A program made the translations under genes and the position numbers. This document shows positions 4,025-36,278 of a stretch of 42,831 bases of DNA, in pieces; position 1 is the first letter of the stretch, and each line of letters opens with the position of its first letter. The stretch lies in NCBI GenBank assembly GCA_902579065.1, contig CACHFI010000008.1, positions 1 through 42,831 of the forward strand, written 5' to 3'. This DNA comes from an uncultured Bacteroidota bacterium. GTDB taxonomy: Bacteria > Bacteroidota > Bacteroidia > Flavobacteriales > BACL11. The notes below the pieces were generated by a model. That model did no database searches. It worked only from the letters and a program-made list of their open reading frames with translations, and was not told the DNA's origin.

Positions 4025-4795
4025 CTAATTTCCTTTAAAATTTGGTTTTCTCTTTTCTAAAAAAGCATTAACACCTTCGTTAAAGTCATTTGTATTACCA
4101 GCAATTATTTGAGCATTTAATTCTTCATTTAATTGGTTTTCTAAGTCATTGGTTAAAGAAAGATTTAATAATTTTTTTGTTAATCCAAGACCTTTTGTAG
4201 GCATTTGACTTAGTTTTTCAGCAAGTTTTAAAACTTCATTTTCAAAATCGTTGTCATCATAAACCTTATATATCATGCCAATATTAAAAGCATCATCAGC
4301 AGAAATCGGATCAGCTGTCATCATTAATCCAGCAGCTTTTTGTAATCCAATAAGTCTAGGAAGGAAAAAGGTAGCAGCACTATCTGGAATTAATCCAATT
4401 TTACTAAAAGCTTGAACAAAAACAGCACTTTTTTTAGCAACTACAATATCACAGCATAAAGCTATAGAGGCACCAGCTCCAGCTGCTACTCCATTTACCG
4501 CAGCAATTATGGGTTTTTCAATACTTCTGATTTTTCTAATTATAGGATTATAATGATCTTTTACTATTTTTTCTAGTCCTGGACTATTTTCGTCAATTGC
4601 TTCTGATAAATCTTGACCTGCACAGAAAGCCTTTCCAGTTGCCGTAATTAGGATGCATCTAATATTTTCATCATTCTCGCATTCATCAAGCTTTAACTGA
4701 AGATCTAATGCCATCTCTTTAACAAAAGAATGATACTTATCAGGTCTATCTAATGTTAGAATTGCAATTTGATTATTTATTTCTTTTTTAATCAT
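4025..4795 (-). CDS. paaG: Enoyl-CoA hydratase/isomerase family, PaaG-type (ring 1,2-epoxyphenylacetyl-CoA isomerase)
   Basis: 256 aa crotonase fold; GKAFCAGQDLSE and FVQAFSKIGLIPDSAATFFLPRLIGLQKA resemble PaaG rather than PaaF. Confidence 0.82.
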   Translation of the reverse strand: MIKKEINNQIAILTLDRPDKYHSFVKEMALDLQLKLDECENDENIRCILITATGKAFCAGQDLSEAIDENSPGLEKIVKDHYNPIIRKIRSIEKPIIAAVNGVAAGAGASIALCCDIVVAKKSAVFVQAFSKIGLIPDSAATFFLPRLIGLQKAAGLMMTADPISADDAFNIGMIYKVYDDNDFENEVLKLAEKLSQMPTKGLGLTKKLLNLSLTNDLENQLNEELNAQIIAGNTNDFNEGVNAFLEKRKPNFKGN

Positions 4796-4845
4796 TTATT
4801 AGATATAATCCATTGTAAAAATAATAAATGAGCAGTAAACAAGTC

Positions 4846-5298
4846 TTATATACATTTGAAATGTTCAAAAGGTTCTAAGCATTCGGTACATTTATGCATT
4901 GATTTACAAGCAGTTGCGCCAAACTCACTTATTAATTCAATTTTTTTTGAGTTACACTGAGGACATTCAATTATTTTTTCTGGTGGAGCTATACCGTATT
5001 TTTTTAGTTTTTGCTTGGTTTCTTTGGTCATCCAATCAGTTGTCCACGCAGGCTTGTAAACGATATCTATTTTAAAATTATCAATATCATTTTTTTTAAG
5101 TTGTGTCTTAATGTCATCTTGAAAAGTCTTTACTGCAGGGCATCCAGAATATGTTGGGGTAACAGAAATAATATATTCATTTTCAATGTATTCTACATTT
5201 CTAATTACACCAAGCTCTACTACAGAAATAACAGGTATTTCAGGATCAGGAACTGATCCTAAAATATTCCATATTTTTTCTATTTTACCACTTCGCAT
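4846..5298 (-). CDS. paaD: PaaD (1,2-phenylacetyl-CoA epoxidase subunit; MIP18/DUF59 family with C-terminal zinc ribbon)
   Basis: DUF59 motif VPDPEIPVISVVELGVIRNV, CPQCNSKK...CTECLEPFEHFKC. Start trimmed from the ORF-track start (5331) to MRSGKIEKIWN at 5298, which leaves a short overlap with paaC. Confidence 0.87.
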   Translation of the reverse strand: MRSGKIEKIWNILGSVPDPEIPVISVVELGVIRNVEYIENEYIISVTPTYSGCPAVKTFQDDIKTQLKKNDIDNFKIDIVYKPAWTTDWMTKETKQKLKKYGIAPPEKIIECPQCNSKKIELISEFGATACKSMHKCTECLEPFEHFKCI

Positions 5299-6031
5299 CA
5301 GGATAAGCTCTTGGGATATATTGCATTTCACTTAGAATTTTTCCTAAAAGTTCTGTATGTATGCCATTTTTGCTTCCTGTCATCATAAAACCGTCTTCAG
5401 GTCTGTTTAATTTTGCTTTTTTTAGTGTATCATTAACAATAATATCCCATTCTTTTTTTAATTGATTGTTGTTTACACCTATTTTTAAATCTAGCATCTT
5501 AAGATCAAGCTGATCCATTTCAAAAAACTCACCAGTATATTTCCAAATCTTATTAAATGAATTTTGAATTTTTTCTTTACTTGTAGCAGTTCCATCTCCC
5601 AGTCTAAGAACCCAATTGCTTGAATGTCTTAAATGATAATTAATTTCTTTAATTGACTTTAAAGCAATTGCACTTAATATTTCATCTTTGCTTTCACTAA
5701 GTTTTTTAAAAAATAATAGTGTGAAACTATCAAAAAGAAACTGTCTGGCGATAGTATCTCCAAAATGTCCATTTTCTTGTTCACAGATTTGAAAATTAAA
5801 AAATTCTCGTTCTCCTCTTTTAAAGGCTAGATCATCAGCAGTTTTTGTGCCATTAATTTTACCACAATATTCCAAAAGAGAGTTCGCTTGACCAAGTAAG
5901 TCTAATGATATGTTTGAAAGAGCAATATCTTCTTCAAGAGATGGTCCTTTTGAACACCACTCAGAAAGTCTATGGGATAAAATCAAAGAACTATCAGCAA
6001 TTCTTAGTATGTATTTCTCTAAGTCTTGCAT
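5285..6031 (-). CDS. paaC: PaaC (1,2-phenylacetyl-CoA epoxidase structural subunit)
   Basis: 248 aa; SSLILSHRLSEWCSKGPSLEEDIALSNISLDLLGQANSLL and EINYHLRHSSNWVLRLGDGT are PaaC-like; cluster order. Confidence 0.92.
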   Translation of the reverse strand: MQDLEKYILRIADSSLILSHRLSEWCSKGPSLEEDIALSNISLDLLGQANSLLEYCGKINGTKTADDLAFKRGEREFFNFQICEQENGHFGDTIARQFLFDSFTLLFFKKLSESKDEILSAIALKSIKEINYHLRHSSNWVLRLGDGTATSKEKIQNSFNKIWKYTGEFFEMDQLDLKMLDLKIGVNNNQLKKEWDIIVNDTLKKAKLNRPEDGFMMTGSKNGIHTELLGKILSEMQYIPRAYPDAKW

Positions 6032-6316
6032 TTAAATATGTTTTGCACCATCAGGGAGATCATAGAATGTAGGGTGTCTATATACCTTATCATTTGCTGG
6101 ATCAAAAAATGATTCTTCATCTTCAGGTACAGAAGAAACAATATGTTCAGATTTAACTACCCAAATACACGACCCCTCATTTCTTCTTGTATAAAGGTCA
6201 CGAGCATTTTGAAGAGCCATTTCTTTATCTTCTGCATGAACGTTTCCAACGTGCTTATGTGGTAAACCATTTTTACTTTGTATAAAAACCTCCCAAATTG
6301 TAGCTGCTTTATTCAT
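6032..6316 (-). CDS. paaB: PaaB (1,2-phenylacetyl-CoA epoxidase subunit B)
   Basis: [41 protein letters not shown] is PaaB-like. Start trimmed to [11 protein letters not shown] at 6316. Confidence 0.93.
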
Positions 6317-7229
6317 TGTGAGTTTGTTTTTTAGCATATGCCTTTGCTGCTTCACGTACCCATTCTCCTTCAGTATGTGCCTTTTTATGGTGTTCTAATC
6401 TTTGCTCATTACATGGTCCATTTCCATTAACAACGTTCCAGAATTCCTCCCAATCAATTTCTCCAAAGTCATATGATCCTCTTTCTTCATTCCATTTTAA
6501 ATCTGGATCGGGTATTTTTAAACCAATTAGCTCAGCTTGGGCTACTGTCTTATCTATGAAATTTTGCCTAAGTTCATCATTTGTTTTTCTTTTTATTTTC
6601 CATTTCATAGCATTACCAGTTCTTGGGGAATCTGAGTCCTGAGGACCAAACATCATAATAGAAGGCCACCAGAATCTATTTAGAGCATCTTGAGCCATTT
6701 CTTTTTGTTCTTTAGTTCCATTAGCCATATGAGCCATAATTTCATATCCTTGTCTTTGATGAAAACTTTCTTCTTTACAAATTTTAATCATACCTCTAGA
6801 ATAGGGACCATATGATGTTTTTTGTAGTGAAACTTGATTAACAATAGCTGCTCCATCCACTAACCAACCTATTGCACCCATGTCAGCCCAGCTTAGTGTA
6901 GGATAATTAAAGATACTAGAGTATTTTGCTTTTCCTTCATGAAGTTGTTTGTTAAGCTCATCTCTTGTGACGCCTAATGTTTCACATGCACTGTACAAAT
7001 AAAGACCATGACCAGCCTCATCTTGAACCTTCGCTAAAAGTATCATTTTTGCCCTTAGTGATGGAGCTCTAGTAATCCAATTACCCTCAGGTTGCATACC
7101 AATAATTTCTGAGTGTGCATGTTGAGATATTTGTCTAATTAAATGGCTTCTGTAGCCATCAGGCATCCAATCTTTTGGTTCGATTTTCTTTTCTGCATTA
7201 ATTTTATCTTGGAAAATTTCTTCTTGCAT
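6309..7229 (-). CDS. paaA: PaaA (1,2-phenylacetyl-CoA epoxidase catalytic subunit)
   Basis: [59 protein letters not shown] is diagnostic of PaaA. Start placed at [15 protein letters not shown] (7229) rather than ORF-track 7280, because a promoter-like element occupies 7251-7280. Confidence 0.93.
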
Positions 7230-7250
7230 ATTAAGATAATTGTGTTTTTG

Positions 7251-7280
7251 CAAATTTATTGAAAATATGTCATTTTTCAA
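7251..7280 (-). promoter_or_regulatory. Predicted Bacteroidota housekeeping promoter for the paaABCD... operon (TTG-N19-TAAATTTG)
   Basis: On the minus strand: TTG (complement of caa 7278-7280), exactly 19 nt, then TAAATTTG (complement of caaattta 7251-7258), matching the Bacteroidota TTG-N19-TAnnTTTG consensus; 21 nt upstream of the proposed paaA ATG. Confidence 0.6.
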
Positions 7281-7339
7281 TTTAATATTTTTTAGCTCAG
7301 AAAAAAGTTTTCAATATCCTATTTTTGCAAAAAAAAAAT

Positions 7340-8401
7340 ATGAATAAGTTTTTTTTAGTTCCTGTTAAATCAATTAAAAATCTAACTACAGACTCAGTAA
7401 ATATTGAATTTGATTTATCATCTTTAGATTCTAATTTATTTAGTTTTAAATCAGGTCAGTATATAACAATAGAACATCAAATAAATAATGATAGTGTTAG
7501 ACGTTCTTATTCGATTTCTTCTTCACCTGAAACAGGAATTGAAATTGGAGTTAAGTTAGTTCCTAATGGTTTAATGTCAACTTTTTTAACAACTCAATTA
7601 AAAGAGGGTGATAAGTTAAGCATTATGCCTCCAACTGGTAATTTTTTATTAGATACTGATGAATCAAATAATAATCATTATGTTGGAATAGCTGCTGGAA
7701 GTGGTATTACTCCAATTATGTCAATGATTAAAAATGTTTTAATAAACGAACCATTAAGTACATTTACTTTGATTTACGGAAATAAAACTAAATCATCTAT
7801 TATGTATTCAGATGAAATAAATTTATTTAAGGAGAATTATAATGATCGCTTTTCATTATATAATATTTATTCTCAAGAAAAAATTAACGATTCTTTGTTT
7901 GGAAGAATATCTGGTGAGTTACTCAAGAATTTATTTGATCAAGATTCAAAAATTTCAAATGCTAATTCATTTTTTATTTGTGGCCCTGGAAATATGATAG
8001 AAAATGTAAGAGATTTTTTAGATCTTCTTGAAATAGAAGATAACAAAATTAAATATGAGTTATTTTCTGCACCAACTTTACAAAAAGATGAGCCAAAAGA
8101 AGGTTCAGAATCATTTCTTATTTCAAATGTTACTGTTTGTGTTGATGGTGATGATTTTGAATTTAAATTACCACAAAATGGACAATCAATTTTAGATGCT
8201 GCAATGGAAGCAGGAGCAGACGTTCCTTTTTCATGTAAAGGAGGTGTATGTTCAGTTTGTAAAGCAAAAATTATTGAAGGTACTGCTAAAATGGATATGA
8301 ATTATTCTCTATCTGAAGATGATGTAGAAGAAGGTTTTGTTTTAACCTGTCAAGCTCACCCAACATCTGAAAATATCTATATTGATTATGATGAAATGTA
8401 A
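7340..8401 (+). CDS. paaE: PaaE-type FAD/NAD(P) reductase with C-terminal 2Fe-2S ferredoxin domain (phenylacetyl-CoA epoxidase reductase)
   Basis: RRSYSISSSPETG (FAD), AAGSGITPIMSMIKNVL (NAD-binding), CKGGVCSVCKAKIIEG...CQAHP (2Fe-2S). Start trimmed to ATG at 7340 (MNKFFLVPVKS). Confidence 0.9.
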   Translation: MNKFFLVPVKSIKNLTTDSVNIEFDLSSLDSNLFSFKSGQYITIEHQINNDSVRRSYSISSSPETGIEIGVKLVPNGLMSTFLTTQLKEGDKLSIMPPTGNFLLDTDESNNNHYVGIAAGSGITPIMSMIKNVLINEPLSTFTLIYGNKTKSSIMYSDEINLFKENYNDRFSLYNIYSQEKINDSLFGRISGELLKNLFDQDSKISNANSFFICGPGNMIENVRDFLDLLEIEDNKIKYELFSAPTLQKDEPKEGSESFLISNVTVCVDGDDFEFKLPQNGQSILDAAMEAGADVPFSCKGGVCSVCKAKIIEGTAKMDMNYSLSEDDVEEGFVLTCQAHPTSENIYIDYDEM

Positions 8402-20424: not shown

Positions 20425-21135
20425 TTATTCAAAAGTAAATGAAATCATCCAACTACTAGTTTTAAGATTCTTTATTGCTTCTGTATATAATGTGCTATCC
20501 TTTGTGAGTATATTAATGATACCATGAGATAGTTTGATTTGTGGGGAGAATTTAAAATATTGTAAATAAAAATCAATACCAAATCCACCTTCAATCATGA
20601 GATCATGATTATTTAATTTTACTAATTCTTGACCTTCATCATCTATTTCTGATTGAGATGCAATATCAAGACTATATTTTATACCACACATTACATATGT
20701 TCTGAAGTTATTATATCTTTCTGATTTATATTTTAAAGAAAATGGAAAATCAATCATTGTAGATTCAATTCTTTTTTCTTGTGATGGCAAATTACTTTGA
20801 TTATTGAAACTATAATTCAATATTCTTTCTCCAAAAACAAGTGTTGGAATAAATCTTAGATCAGTGTATTTTCCTAATCTTAAATTAGATACAATACCTA
20901 GATTAAATCCTTTCTGATCTTCTGATAACATACTAAGTAATGTGTCATTATTTAGAAAATTATTATTCTTATTTATGTTAAAGTTTAGTGAGTTAATACC
21001 TAAAGTAAATCCAAAATGAATCTTTTTAAAATCATACCTGGGAAGATTTTGAGGTTTTTTATGTCTTTGTCCAAAAGAATTAAAACTAACACATAAAAGT
21101 AATGCTATTAAAAAAAATATGTTTGGTGATTTCAC
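20425..21135 (-). CDS. porT: PorT-family outer-membrane beta-barrel protein (T9SS-associated)
   Basis: 236 aa; signal peptide, KKPQNLPRYDFKKIHFGFTLGINSLNF, beta-strand-rich; position next to ubiE as commonly seen in Bacteroidota. Confidence 0.82.
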   Translation of the reverse strand: MKSPNIFFLIALLLCVSFNSFGQRHKKPQNLPRYDFKKIHFGFTLGINSLNFNINKNNNFLNNDTLLSMLSEDQKGFNLGIVSNLRLGKYTDLRFIPTLVFGERILNYSFNNQSNLPSQEKRIESTMIDFPFSLKYKSERYNNFRTYVMCGIKYSLDIASQSEIDDEGQELVKLNNHDLMIEGGFGIDFYLQYFKFSPQIKLSHGIINILTKDSTLYTEAIKNLKTSSWMISFTFE

Positions 21136-21882: not shown

Positions 21883-22861
21883 GAATTTCTTTTGCTCTCT
21901 CTAATAATTCTTGATTAGTTATTGGAACTACACCAACTTTTTCACAGACTATACCACCAGCAATATTTGCAAGTAATGCAATTTCTTCAAAATCTATGTT
22001 ACAAGCCATACAAATTGCTGCAACAGAAACTACAGTGTCACCTGCGCCAGAAACATCAATTACATTTGATGTTGTTGAGCTTTCTATTATAAAGTTATTT
22101 TTAGTGTTTAGACAAATTCCTTTGCTTGATAATGTTAAGAGAATTGCTTTTGCAGAGATAAGCTCTCTTAATTCTGTTGTTTTCTTAGTTATTTCATTTT
22201 TATTTTCAATATCAATGCTTGTTTTTAAACCATCTTTAATTTCATTAAAATTTGGTTTAAATAAAGTGCAATTTTTATATAATAAAAAATTCTGTTTTTT
22301 TGGATCAACAATCGTTGGAATATTTTTTTTATTAGCTAAACAAATTATTTTTTCAATAATATTTTCTGTTAGAACTCCTTTATTATAATCTTGTAGAATA
22401 ATGGCATCAATATTATGAGTTAATTTTTCAATTAGATTATAAAACTGCTTTTCTATTTTTATTGGATAAGTATCCTCTTCGTCAATTCTTAGTTGATGTT
22501 TATTGTTTGCAATAACTCGGGTTTTAGTGGTAGTTTTTCTACCGTTAGAAATTAACATACCTTCTAAGGTTAAGCCTTGTTCCTGCATTAATTCTTCAAA
22601 CAATATCCCTCTATTATCATTTCCAATTACAGTGCATAGAATTGATTCCGCACCTAATTCTTTTAAATTTAAAGCTACATTAGCAGCTCCGCCAAGTCTA
22701 CTATCGTTTTGATTAACTGCAACATCTACAACAGGTACAGGAGCTTCTGGAGACATTCTATTTATTTCCCCCCATAGGTAAGTGTCGATAATTGCATCTC
22801 CAACAATTAGAATTCTTTTAGATTTGAAATCGTGAAAATATTTATTGAGATTCATTTTCAC
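21872..22861 (-). CDS. PfkB-family kinase, D-glycero-beta-D-manno-heptose-7-phosphate kinase (RfaE1/HldE N-terminal domain type)
   Basis: ILIVGDAIIDTYLWGEINRMSPEAPVPVVDV; RLGGAANVALNLKELGA; VDVSGAGDTVVS. Confidence 0.88.
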   Translation of the reverse strand: MKMNLNKYFHDFKSKRILIVGDAIIDTYLWGEINRMSPEAPVPVVDVAVNQNDSRLGGAANVALNLKELGAESILCTVIGNDNRGILFEELMQEQGLTLEGMLISNGRKTTTKTRVIANNKHQLRIDEEDTYPIKIEKQFYNLIEKLTHNIDAIILQDYNKGVLTENIIEKIICLANKKNIPTIVDPKKQNFLLYKNCTLFKPNFNEIKDGLKTSIDIENKNEITKKTTELRELISAKAILLTLSSKGICLNTKNNFIIESSTTSNVIDVSGAGDTVVSVAAICMACNIDFEEIALLANIAGGIVCEKVGVVPITNQELLERAKEILDV

Positions 22862-24054
22862 TTTAGTTTTTCTAATTGAATTTGTATTCTCTTAGCAGCT
22901 TCCAATAGATTATTTTCAGAAGCAGCATATGATATTCTAACACATTCCGGATTGCCAAAAGGAGCTCCAGAAACAAGTGCTACATAACATGAGTTTAATA
23001 AATACATACATAAATCATCTGCATTTTTAATTACTTTGTCTCCATCTGACTTCCCAAAAAAGTATGATACATCTGGAAAAATATAAAAGGCTCCATCGGG
23101 AATATTACATTTAATTCCTTTAATGCTATTTAATTTTTCAAGTAATAAATCTCTTCTTTTAAGAAAAGAACTTTTCATTTCATTAGTAACAATTTTGGGA
23201 TCAGCATTCATTGCTTCCTCAGTTGCTTTTTGAGCAATTGCACATGTTGCTGAAGTTACTTGACCTTGTATTTTATTACATGCTTTTGCAATCCACAATG
23301 GAGCACCTATAAATCCTACTCTCCACCCTGTCATTGCAAAACCCTTAGAAACTCCATTAACAGTAATTACTCTATCTTTTAAACTGTCAATTGTTCCTAT
23401 GCTAAAATGTTTATCAGTAAAATTTATATGCTCATAAATTTCATCAGAAACAATATAAATATTTGGGTATTTTTTAAAAATTTCTGCAATTTCTCTTAGC
23501 TCATCTTCAGTATAAACTGATCCGCTAGGATTACATGGAGAACTAAACATAAACATTCTTGTTTTATCAGTTATTGCATTTTCAATTTGTTTTGGGCTAA
23601 CTTTAAAATTTTTTGTAACTGATGAAGAAATTTCAACAGGTATTCCTTCTGCAAGCTTAATAATTTCAGCATAAGACACCCAGTATGGACAAGGCAAGAG
23701 AACTTCATCACCAGGGTCTAAAAGACTTAAACAAATATTTGCCAATGATTGTTTAGCTCCAGTTGAAACAACAATTTCATCTTTTGTAAATTCAAGTTTA
23801 TTGTCTCTTTTAAATTTTTTTGCAATAGAATTTCTTAATTCATCTAGCCCGGGTACTGGAGTATAGTGAGAATAGTTGTTTGTAATTGCTTCTTTTGCTG
23901 CATCTTTAATAAATTCAGGTGTATTAAAGTCTGGTTCTCCTAGACTTAATGCAATTACATCTTTTCCTTCTGCTTTTAATTCTCTGCTCATTCTAGCCAT
24001 TGCAAGAGTTGCACTTTCTGCTAGTCTATTTATTCTTTCTGATAACTTTTGCAT
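22858..24054 (-). CDS. PLP-dependent aspartate aminotransferase family
   Basis: 398 aa; IALSLGEPDFNTPEFI, GAKQSLANICLSLLDPGDEVLLPCPYW, VNGVSKGFAMTGWRVGF. Confidence 0.93.
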   Translation of the reverse strand: MQKLSERINRLAESATLAMARMSRELKAEGKDVIALSLGEPDFNTPEFIKDAAKEAITNNYSHYTPVPGLDELRNSIAKKFKRDNKLEFTKDEIVVSTGAKQSLANICLSLLDPGDEVLLPCPYWVSYAEIIKLAEGIPVEISSSVTKNFKVSPKQIENAITDKTRMFMFSSPCNPSGSVYTEDELREIAEIFKKYPNIYIVSDEIYEHINFTDKHFSIGTIDSLKDRVITVNGVSKGFAMTGWRVGFIGAPLWIAKACNKIQGQVTSATCAIAQKATEEAMNADPKIVTNEMKSSFLKRRDLLLEKLNSIKGIKCNIPDGAFYIFPDVSYFFGKSDGDKVIKNADDLCMYLLNSCYVALVSGAPFGNPECVRISYAASENNLLEAAKRIQIQLEKLK

Positions 24055-24072
24055 ATTTATTTTTAAGGGCTA

Positions 24073-24080
24073 CAAATATA
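24073..24080 (-). promoter_or_regulatory. -7 element TATATTTG for the aminotransferase operon
   Basis: Complement of caaatata; TATATTTG matches TAnnTTTG; 18 nt upstream of the ATG; forms one arm of an inverted repeat with 24098-24107. Confidence 0.45.
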
Positions 24081-24097
24081 AGAATATTGAAATGATA

Positions 24098-24105
24098 TAT
24101 ATTTG
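24098..24105 (+). promoter_or_regulatory. -7 element TATATTTG for the small repeat protein gene
   Basis: TATATTTG directly in sequence, 19 nt before ATG 24125; no well-spaced TTG seen. Confidence 0.45.
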
Positions 24106-24124
24106 TAACTTCAGATTTAAAAGT

Positions 24125-24469
24125 ATGTATTTATATAAGATTATTTTGTTTTTGTTTTTTACTTTTTTTTGCTTGAAAACCTCATATTCTCAAAAAGTTT
24201 TCGCTGTTGATTATGCTAGTTATGCTGATATTAAAGTTTTTGTTACTAAGTATGCTAGTCAAGCTGATCTTCTTGTTTTTAAAGTTAAATTTTCTTCTCA
24301 GTCATCTGATAATGTTGGTAATTGGTATTTTGTAGAATATGCCAGTCAAGCGGACAAAAAAATATATTATTGTAAATATGCTAGTGAGGCGGATTTAAAA
24401 ATATATTTTGTTGATTATGAAAGTCAATCTAAATGGAAAAAAAATGAAAAAAGACATATGTTTTTTTAA
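24125..24469 (+). CDS. Secreted DUF6150-like repeat protein ('7(1) septoil knot' domain type)
   Basis: Signal peptide MYLYKIILFLFFTFFCLKTSYSQ, then six ~13-aa beta repeats KVFAVDYASYADI/KVFVTKYASQADL/LVFKVKFSSQSSD-NVGN-WYFVEYASQADK/KIYYCKYASEADL/KIYFVDYESQSKW. Start trimmed from the ORF-track 23876, which lies inside the aminotransferase. Confidence 0.8.
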   Translation: MYLYKIILFLFFTFFCLKTSYSQKVFAVDYASYADIKVFVTKYASQADLLVFKVKFSSQSSDNVGNWYFVEYASQADKKIYYCKYASEADLKIYFVDYESQSKWKKNEKRHMFF

Positions 24470-25407
24470 TATTCTTGAATTATATTAAATAAATCATCTT
24501 TTCCAGAGATTATATTTTTAATTATATCCTCTAATTTTTTGGATTCTTTTAGCTTTGAATATTTTTTATTTCCAAGTTCATCTTTTAAAACTTTTTTTAG
24601 CCAGAATATTTCTTGTTTTTTTCTTTTTTTAATGAAAGAATCTTCTCTACGAGCTATATTGTTAAATTGATTAACAATGGTGTTAATTTCGTCAATACCA
24701 TTATTATTTATTGAAGAGCATTTTAATACTTTTGGTAACCAAATTTCATCGACAGGTGGGTTAATTGAAATAATATTTCTAAACTCAATTAATGTTTGCT
24801 TGGCTTTCATTTGATTATCACCATCATCTTTTGTAACAATAATTAAATGGGCTAATTCAATAATACCTCTCTTAATTGCTTGTAATTGATCACCAGCACC
24901 AGTGATTGTTAATAATAGCATAATATCAACTAATTTACTAACTGTGGTTTCAGATTGCCCAACACCAACAGTTTCAATAATAATTATATCATAACCAGCT
25001 GCTTCACATAGAAGAATACAGTCTCTAGTTTTATTAGACACACCACCTAAAACACCATTATTTGCACTGGGTCTGATAAAAGCATTTTTTTCTAATGAAA
25101 GTTTTTCCATTCTACTTTTATCTCCTAAAATACTGCCACTTGTTTTTTCACTTGAAGGATCAATTGCAAGAACGGCAACACTTTTTCCTTGATTAATAAA
25201 AGTTTGACCAAATTTTTCAATAAATGAGCTTTTTCCTACACCAGGAATTCCAGTAACTCCGATTCTAATTGTATTTTGTTTTTCAGGAAATTTTGAAAGA
25301 AGGTTGCTGATAAAACGTTGATCGTTTTCTAATGTGCTTTCAGCAAGTGTAATAGCCTTACTTAATGCTTTGTTATTTTTATTTTTTAATTCGTTATATA
25401 TATTCAT
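24466..25407 (-). CDS. meaB: MeaB/ArgK-family P-loop GTPase (methylmalonyl-CoA mutase-associated)
   Basis: 313 aa; IGVTGIPGVGKSSFIEKFG; LAIDPSSEKTSGSILGDKSRM; IIIETVGVGQSE; VTKDDGDN. Confidence 0.92.
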   Translation of the reverse strand: MNIYNELKNKNNKALSKAITLAESTLENDQRFISNLLSKFPEKQNTIRIGVTGIPGVGKSSFIEKFGQTFINQGKSVAVLAIDPSSEKTSGSILGDKSRMEKLSLEKNAFIRPSANNGVLGGVSNKTRDCILLCEAAGYDIIIIETVGVGQSETTVSKLVDIMLLLTITGAGDQLQAIKRGIIELAHLIIVTKDDGDNQMKAKQTLIEFRNIISINPPVDEIWLPKVLKCSSINNNGIDEINTIVNQFNNIARREDSFIKKRKKQEIFWLKKVLKDELGNKKYSKLKESKKLEDIIKNIISGKDDLFNIIQEY

Positions 25408-34733: not shown

Positions 34734-36278
34734 ATGAAAAATATACTTTGGGTAGATGATGAAATTGAATTATTGAAACCTCATATAATCTATTTACAGT
34801 CTAAAGGATATAATTTAACTACTGCTAAAAGCGGAGATGAAGCTCTTGATATTATTGAGAATGCTTCTTTTAATTTAATATTTTTAGATGAAAATATGCC
34901 AGGTCTTTCAGGTCTTGAAACTTTAAATATCATTAAAGATAAATATCAAAATATTCCAGTTGTAATGATTACTAAAAGTGAAGAGGAAAGTATTATGGAG
35001 GAAGCTATTGGTTCAAAAATATCTGACTATTTAATTAAGCCAGTTAATCCTAGTCAAATTCTTCTTTCAATTAAAAAAAATTTAGATTCTAATAGATTAG
35101 TAGATGAAAAAATAACAAGAAGCTATCAACAAGAATTTAGAAATATTTCATTACAACTATCTTCAAATTTATCATTTGATGAATGGTGCGATGTGTACAA
35201 GAAAATTATTTATTGGGAATTAGAACTTGAAAAATCAAATGACAATAGTATAGATGAAATTATATCTATGCAAAAAACAGAAGCAAATTCACAATTTTTT
35301 AGGTTTATTTCCAATAATTATGAAAATTGGATTAATGATAATGATTCTCCCTTATTGTCACACAATTTAATAAAAGAAAAGGTTTTTCCTCATTTAAATA
35401 AAAACGAATCACTTTATCTTTTATTAATTGATAATTTAAGATATGATCAGTGGAAAGTTATCGAAGATAAAATTTTAAAAAAATTTAATGTTATCTCCGA
35501 TGAAATGTATATGAGTATTTTGCCAACATCAACGCAATATTCAAGAAATTCTATTTTTTCTGGATTAAAGCCGTCTGAAATAGCAGCTAATTATCCTGAT
35601 AAATGGCTTAATGATGAAGATGAGGGAGGTAAGAATATGCATGAAGAAGAATTTCTTTTGGATCAATTAAGACGTAATAATTTAGAAGATTATAAATTGT
35701 CTTATACCAAGATTACTAATATAGATTTTGGAAGAAAAGTAATTAATAGAATTGATAATCTTAAGCATAATCATCTAAATGTAATTGTCTATAATTTTGT
35801 AGACATGCTTTCACATGCAAGAACTGAAATGAAAGTAATAAAAGAATTAGCGGATGATGATTCTGCTTACAGGTCATTAACCTCATCATGGTTTGAACAT
35901 TCTCCATTAATTGATATAATTTCAAAAATTGCACTACAAGGATCAAAAATTGTAATTACTACTGATCATGGTACAATTAATGTAAATAAACCCTCAAAAG
36001 TCATTGGAGATAAAAGAGTCAATCCTAATTTAAGATATAAGCAAGGTAAAAATTTAAATTATAATTCTACTGATGTTTTTGAAATGGCTGATCCTTCAAA
36101 GTTCTATTTGCCAAAACAAAATATAAGTAGTAAATATATTTTTGCTAAGGAAGATTTGTATTTTGTTTATCAAAACAATTATAATAAATATGTTAATTTT
36201 TATAAAAACACTTATCAGCACGGAGGTATTTCTTTAGAAGAAATGCTTTTGCCAATAATCATTATTGAGCCAAAATAA
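34734..36278 (+). CDS. porX: PorX: response-regulator receiver domain fused to PglZ domain (T9SS regulator)
   Basis: 514 aa; receiver MKNILWVDDEIELLKPHIIYL...LIFLDENMPGLSG; PglZ part LLIDNLRYDQWKVI, SILPTSTQYSRNSIFSGLKP, VITTDHGTI. Architecture diagnostic of PorX. Confidence 0.93.
   Translation: MKNILWVDDEIELLKPHIIYLQSKGYNLTTAKSGDEALDIIENASFNLIFLDENMPGLSGLETLNIIKDKYQNIPVVMITKSEEESIMEEAIGSKISDYLIKPVNPSQILLSIKKNLDSNRLVDEKITRSYQQEFRNISLQLSSNLSFDEWCDVYKKIIYWELELEKSNDNSIDEIISMQKTEANSQFFRFISNNYENWINDNDSPLLSHNLIKEKVFPHLNKNESLYLLLIDNLRYDQWKVIEDKILKKFNVISDEMYMSILPTSTQYSRNSIFSGLKPSEIAANYPDKWLNDEDEGGKNMHEEEFLLDQLRRNNLEDYKLSYTKITNIDFGRKVINRIDNLKHNHLNVIVYNFVDMLSHARTEMKVIKELADDDSAYRSLTSSWFEHSPLIDIISKIALQGSKIVITTDHGTINVNKPSKVIGDKRVNPNLRYKQGKNLNYNSTDVFEMADPSKFYLPKQNISSKYIFAKEDLYFVYQNNYNKYVNFYKNTYQHGGISLEEMLLPIIIIEPK

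Follow-up and report, generated by a model that had tools for sequence, protein, structure and literature searches.

The window, that is, the whole stretch of 42,831 nucleotides which was analysed, contains on its plus strand an open reading frame (24125–24469; ATG at 24125, TAA at 24467–24469) whose product is read as 114 amino acids and which, by its Pfam match, is an entire DUF6150 (PF19647) gene. Both neighbours lie on the minus strand: an aspC-type aminotransferase gene (22858–24054) is divergent from it across a spacer of 70 bp (24055–24124), and meaB (24466–25407) is convergent, the two genes overlapping tail to tail by 4 bp. The first-pass annotation had presented a single gene facing meaB and sharing a 70-bp intergenic region with an aminotransferase; coordinates, frame and neighbours all agree with this. 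The sequence TAnnTTTG is the −7 box of the Bacteroidota, a promoter motif. A motif scan of the spacer revealed one box per strand (TATATTTG, 24098–24105, plus; TATATTTG, 24080–24073, minus) where the frequency of such boxes across the window predicts 0.09 per 70 bp for the two strands together. Elsewhere in the window, by reading alone, we noted a phenylacetate-degradation cluster of the paa type (4025–8401), a PorX-like response regulator (34734–36278) and a PorT-like protein (20425–21135). The last two suggest a host with a type IX secretion system; on reading the sequence of the DUF6150 protein no obvious type IX sorting domain was seen.

The protein is composed of a 22-residue leader, six repeats of 13 residues, the third and fourth separated by an insert of three residues, and a C-terminal tail of basic character. 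The putative signal sequence MYLYKIILFLFFTFFCLKTSYS (24125–24190), with a presumed cut before Q23, was placed from sequence features and relatives. Repeat analysis put repeat 1 (KVFAVDYASYADI) at 24194–24232, repeat 2 (KVFVTKYASQADL) at 24233–24271 and repeat 3 (LVFKVKFSSQSSD) at 24272–24310; then follow, from the repeat register, the insert NVG (24311–24319), repeat 4 (NWYFVEYASQADK, 24320–24358), repeat 5 (KIYYCKYASEADL, 24359–24397) and repeat 6 (KIYFVDYESQSKW, 24398–24436). The tail KKNEKRHMFF (24437–24466) corresponds in the family alignment to the pattern K-x-H-L-x-Y. Over the 15 repeat pairs 78 of 195 positions are identical, far beyond chance since 20,000 shuffles gave 16.3 ± 3.7 with a maximum of 35. 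The six units which the first-pass annotation had described are therefore real, while its register around the third has to be amended: all units are of 13 residues and the insert is NVG.

Membership in DUF6150, which the first-pass annotation had proposed as likely, was borne out by the profile search (65.2 bits against a cut-off of 27, E = 5.6e-18), the match covering profile positions 6–97 of 98 and spanning the whole mature domain. A match to the NCBIfam XkdX model (15 bits, cut-off 28) was rejected. The six-repeat mature domain (about 92 residues, two conserved Trp) aligns almost without gaps with 43 relatives. Certain conserved residues are specific to one repeat, namely the Trp of repeat 4 and the Trp closing repeat 6, both invariant in the 44 proteins compared, and a Lys in repeat 3.

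The window leader, MYLYKIILFLFFTFFCLKTSYS followed by QK, is hydrophobic and signal-like as judged by eye and from relatives. Among the 115 Bacteroidota relatives which can be divided into six repeats, 114 possess a hydrophobic leader; around the presumed cut, position −1 is A, S or G in 108 and position +1 is Q in 108. The sole leaderless one (L135) has an open frame beginning close upstream of the repeats. The conservation of leader and A/S/G|Q pattern upholds the signal peptide claimed for this protein. Since the window leader lacks a twin-arginine, export is likely to be by Sec with a cleavable N-terminal signal sequence. The description of the protein as an exported member stands with respect to the leader, but not as an exception: from the leader found in 114 of 115 relatives, the exported form would be the rule in Bacteroidota DUF6150. 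Leaderless members do exist (L034, L129, L053, L132). L053 (982–1701) and L132 have leaderless YxYEAD repeats, behind which come a linker rich in Ser, a transmembrane segment and a domain resembling bacterial SH3; the SH3_3 match of the former, at 24 bits, is slightly below the Pfam cut-off of 27.

A DUF6150 gene occurs in 25 of 60 relatives, in 25 of the 32 genomes of the host's family with completeness of at least 80% and in 13 of the 16 best-quality ones, and more sparsely in the class (74 of 395) and phylum-wide (21 of 398). Within the host's family, where the locus extends far enough to tell, the order in most members is aspC-DUF6150-meaB, and the gene of the window is a normal, inherited one. 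Outside the host's family the neighbours are scattered, and no recurring one was found. Phage and plasmid collections gave no match at E 0.01; a hit on a Chryseobacterium plasmid (E = 0.04) was dropped, being a different tandem repeat in a frame other than that of its annotated gene. One divergent DUF6150 gene (L049) lies beside genes which by eye resemble phage morphogenesis genes. Tandem paralogues are seen at L083 (two ORFs) and G534:C18, where a regular YESQA copy stands beside a copy with six unlike words. A further subfamily (L127, L130, L131, L133, L134, L135), mostly from large-genome Bacteroidia, is marked by Cys residues on either side of the domain and by words that end in -FAD.

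The first-pass annotation had also taken the protein to be a likely member of the "7(1) septoil knot" family. That name for DUF6150 was not found in the literature searched, the Pfam copy saying simply DUF6150, while the link to a 7_1 knot itself could be traced by a path through sequence. Published knot predictions give 7_1 for Q9PR55 (89 residues) and 5_1 for P73136, a probable homolog with 48% identity (PMC9278004); the 7_1 knot of Q9PR55 was confirmed crystallographically as PDB 8iwa (PMC13352647; PMC11223836). Neither the window protein nor the family profiles retrieved 8iwa when run against PDB sequences (E 0.51 in one comparison), and weak matches to nanobodies and ExbD were set aside as noise. 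L129, a leaderless protein of 87 residues which is a DUF6150 member by profile (35.3 bits) and 33% identical to the window protein over 85 residues, does find 8iwa (UU089.1 = Q9PR55; E = 3.4e-6). An ordered alignment of L129 with residues 22–80 of 8iwa, containing one gap of about one repeat, scores 13.6 SD above shuffles, the link passing through this single intermediate, rich in the common short S-F-P-D repeat. Because L129 matches both, DUF6150 and the 7_1 protein Q9PR55 probably form one superfamily with a common fold, although the match to 8iwa draws on that short repeat. Homologs in this superfamily differ in predicted knot and in repeat number, which precludes naming the knot type of the window protein; since Q9PR55 is seemingly about one repeat short of L129, the knot type may differ. 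AlphaFold2 with a nine-sequence alignment gave pLDDT values of 40.4 for the full-length protein and 33.7 for the mature chain only, too low for either model to be usable.

Unexpected in this family is the behaviour of residues 7–11 of each repeat, here called the word, which tends to be alike across the six repeats of one protein and to differ between proteins. Ten words (YASQA, YESQA, YENQA, YESRA, YKSEA, SKYDA, SKSDA, NQAYA, RESYA and YDYQA) occupy at least five of the six repeats in some protein, with WKSDA and ADYKA near that form. Eleven distinct residue pairs at positions 9–10 are found in all six repeats, which implies at least ten switches of all six irrespective of the tree. When the set was dereplicated to 48 proteins, repeats taken from a single protein agreed at positions 9 and 10 with identities of 0.82 and 0.77, compared with 0.42 and 0.30 for the same repeat of different proteins (permuted maximum 0.46 and 0.34); the permutations do not fully remove relatedness, of which the count of distinct all-six words is independent. 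In the same set positions 2, 12 and 13 remain repeat-specific (z −0.4, −0.3 and 1.6). In a tree from which the words had been left out, position 9 changes to one and the same residue in at least four repeats on 17 branches, where independent placement predicts 2.7; two of the 17 are a deep change and its reversal and may be reconstruction noise. Identity among a protein's own repeats exceeds that with the same repeat of a fairly close relative in 57 proteins and falls below it in 52, which indicates that the signal stems from lineages with a switched word. One instance is a pair of paralogues in one genome (L076 and L098) in which 44 of 48 residues outside the words are kept while all six words differ at three positions, NQA versus RES. 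In imperfect proteins the strongest co-variation is between repeats 1–5, 2–6 and 1–4, as would fit a two-turn torus on which repeats three or four places apart lie side by side, but this is only a hint as one clade dominates the sample.

Within the literature searched, such coordinated change of words across repeats, which points to the copies being closely coupled, has not been described before. The window protein itself reads YASYA, YASQA, FSSQS, YASQA, YASEA and YESQS from repeat 1 to repeat 6. Compared with the PF19647 family at large it counts among the more worn copies, its own word identity (0.59) ranking twelfth from the bottom of the 115 relatives divisible into repeats. The trait is thus displayed weakly here, and it is chiefly the family that is of interest.

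The most economical reading is that the six words are selected to match each other, either through mutual contact or through joint binding to a repeating partner. Recombination between repeats, by gene conversion or unequal crossing-over, could instead keep words alike with no selection on structure or binding, and concerted evolution by these routes is known for protein repeats (PMC5120217). Codon identity within words does exceed slightly the expectation from local codon usage (0.528 versus 0.480, a mean excess per gene of 0.048 ± 0.014). Against this, the same word is written with different codons in nearly every repeat, L002 having six DNA words for six YASQA and the L076/L098 pair six different spellings of its six RES words. 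Serine columns mix TCN and AGY codons in 50 of 77 cases, arginine codons in words mix CGN and AGR, and the repeat-specific positions 2, 12 and 13, close to the words, are not homogenised. As the spellings are nearly as varied as local usage predicts, gene conversion of recent date is unlikely; older conversion, since overlaid by synonymous drift, may have been the source of the words, and we judge recombination as the general explanation improbable.

If selection is responsible, the words could form the surface by which a ring or ladder with six sites binds its target, either a repeating polymer or a second molecule of the same protein; all six sites would then need the same residues, and the word would change with the target. 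The proteins are exported, their words switch sixfold on a constant frame (44 of 48 residues in L076/L098), and genomes with two well-kept copies (G663, G706, G551, G033) carry unlike words, although in paralogues this could merely reflect age. Neither a ligand or partner nor a recurring neighbour gene came to light, and we consider this account rather unlikely, if still the strongest rival. Far less credible is a precursor from which six copies of a short peptide would be released in the manner of multi-core RiPP precursors, the words being the product. A leader and identical, lineage-specific short words amid conserved flanks have that appearance, but the Trp of repeat 4, the Trp ending repeat 6 and the Lys of repeat 3 suit a folded domain, no recurring processing gene was found among the neighbours, and the homolog 8iwa is a folded, crystallised protein. 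Between the two forms of matching by selection, contact inside the fold is favoured because the 7_1 homolog likewise repeats a word of its own (S-F-P-D).

We would therefore put the chances at about even that this is an exported DUF6150 protein with a compact, torus-like fold resembling that of Q9PR55, that its words touch their counterparts and that it serves as a scaffold or binding ring. The mature chain of 92 residues would be exported by Sec, cleaved, and folded in the periplasm or outside the cell. It would adopt a compact torus-like beta fold with the six repeats arranged around a pseudo-symmetry axis, placing residues 7–11 (YxSQA here) at equivalent points in each repeat and in contact with one another; a change in one repeat would then favour the same change in the others, and the six words would switch together. 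Most likely it would act not as an enzyme but as a scaffold or binding ring, passive and very stable, given that there is no obvious invariant catalytic set and that the repeated word is the most variable part. We hold somewhat more tentatively the broader proposal that the six repeats of a knot-family protein evolve as a unit, one five-residue word being selected to be alike in all six and giving way to a new one in all six at once, and that exported members are knotted after passage through Sec. The reason would be that the words come together at the central axis of the knotted ring, or else that they bind a single symmetric partner in concert.

The family probably includes, by its sequence relationship to Q9PR55, the most knotted solved protein. 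If the window protein is knotted, it follows that it folds after Sec export, and if the fold is common, an entire family of Bacteroidota proteins forms a complex torus knot once outside the cytoplasm, beyond the reach of cytoplasmic chaperones and of any help from the ribosome in tying it. The switching of words would in addition constitute a natural large-scale record of residues which must match across repeats, against which ideas on the formation of the fold can be tested. The usual trend is for the repeats of a protein to diverge fast from one another and to be conserved from species to species (PMC5120217); the words of DUF6150 run opposite to it.

Among the closest known systems is Q9PR55/UU089.1 of Ureaplasma urealyticum (8iwa), which has repeats of the K-V-x-F-V-x-S-F-P-D type and is reached from DUF6150 via L129; it differs in its 89 residues, apparently about one repeat fewer than L129, and its partly 11-residue spacing. 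P73136 is alike as the published probable homolog of Q9PR55, and since its predicted knot (5_1) is different, knot type is not transferable between such proteins. The Knotted Solenoid fold (3_1) is likewise a bacterial knotted repeat protein (PMC13123833), but, compared by description, it consists of beta-solenoid coils with a trefoil and half its members are in Caulobacteraceae. Designed knotted tandem-repeat proteins also form torus knots from equal repeats around an axis (PMC10598012), though these are alpha-helical and the product of design.
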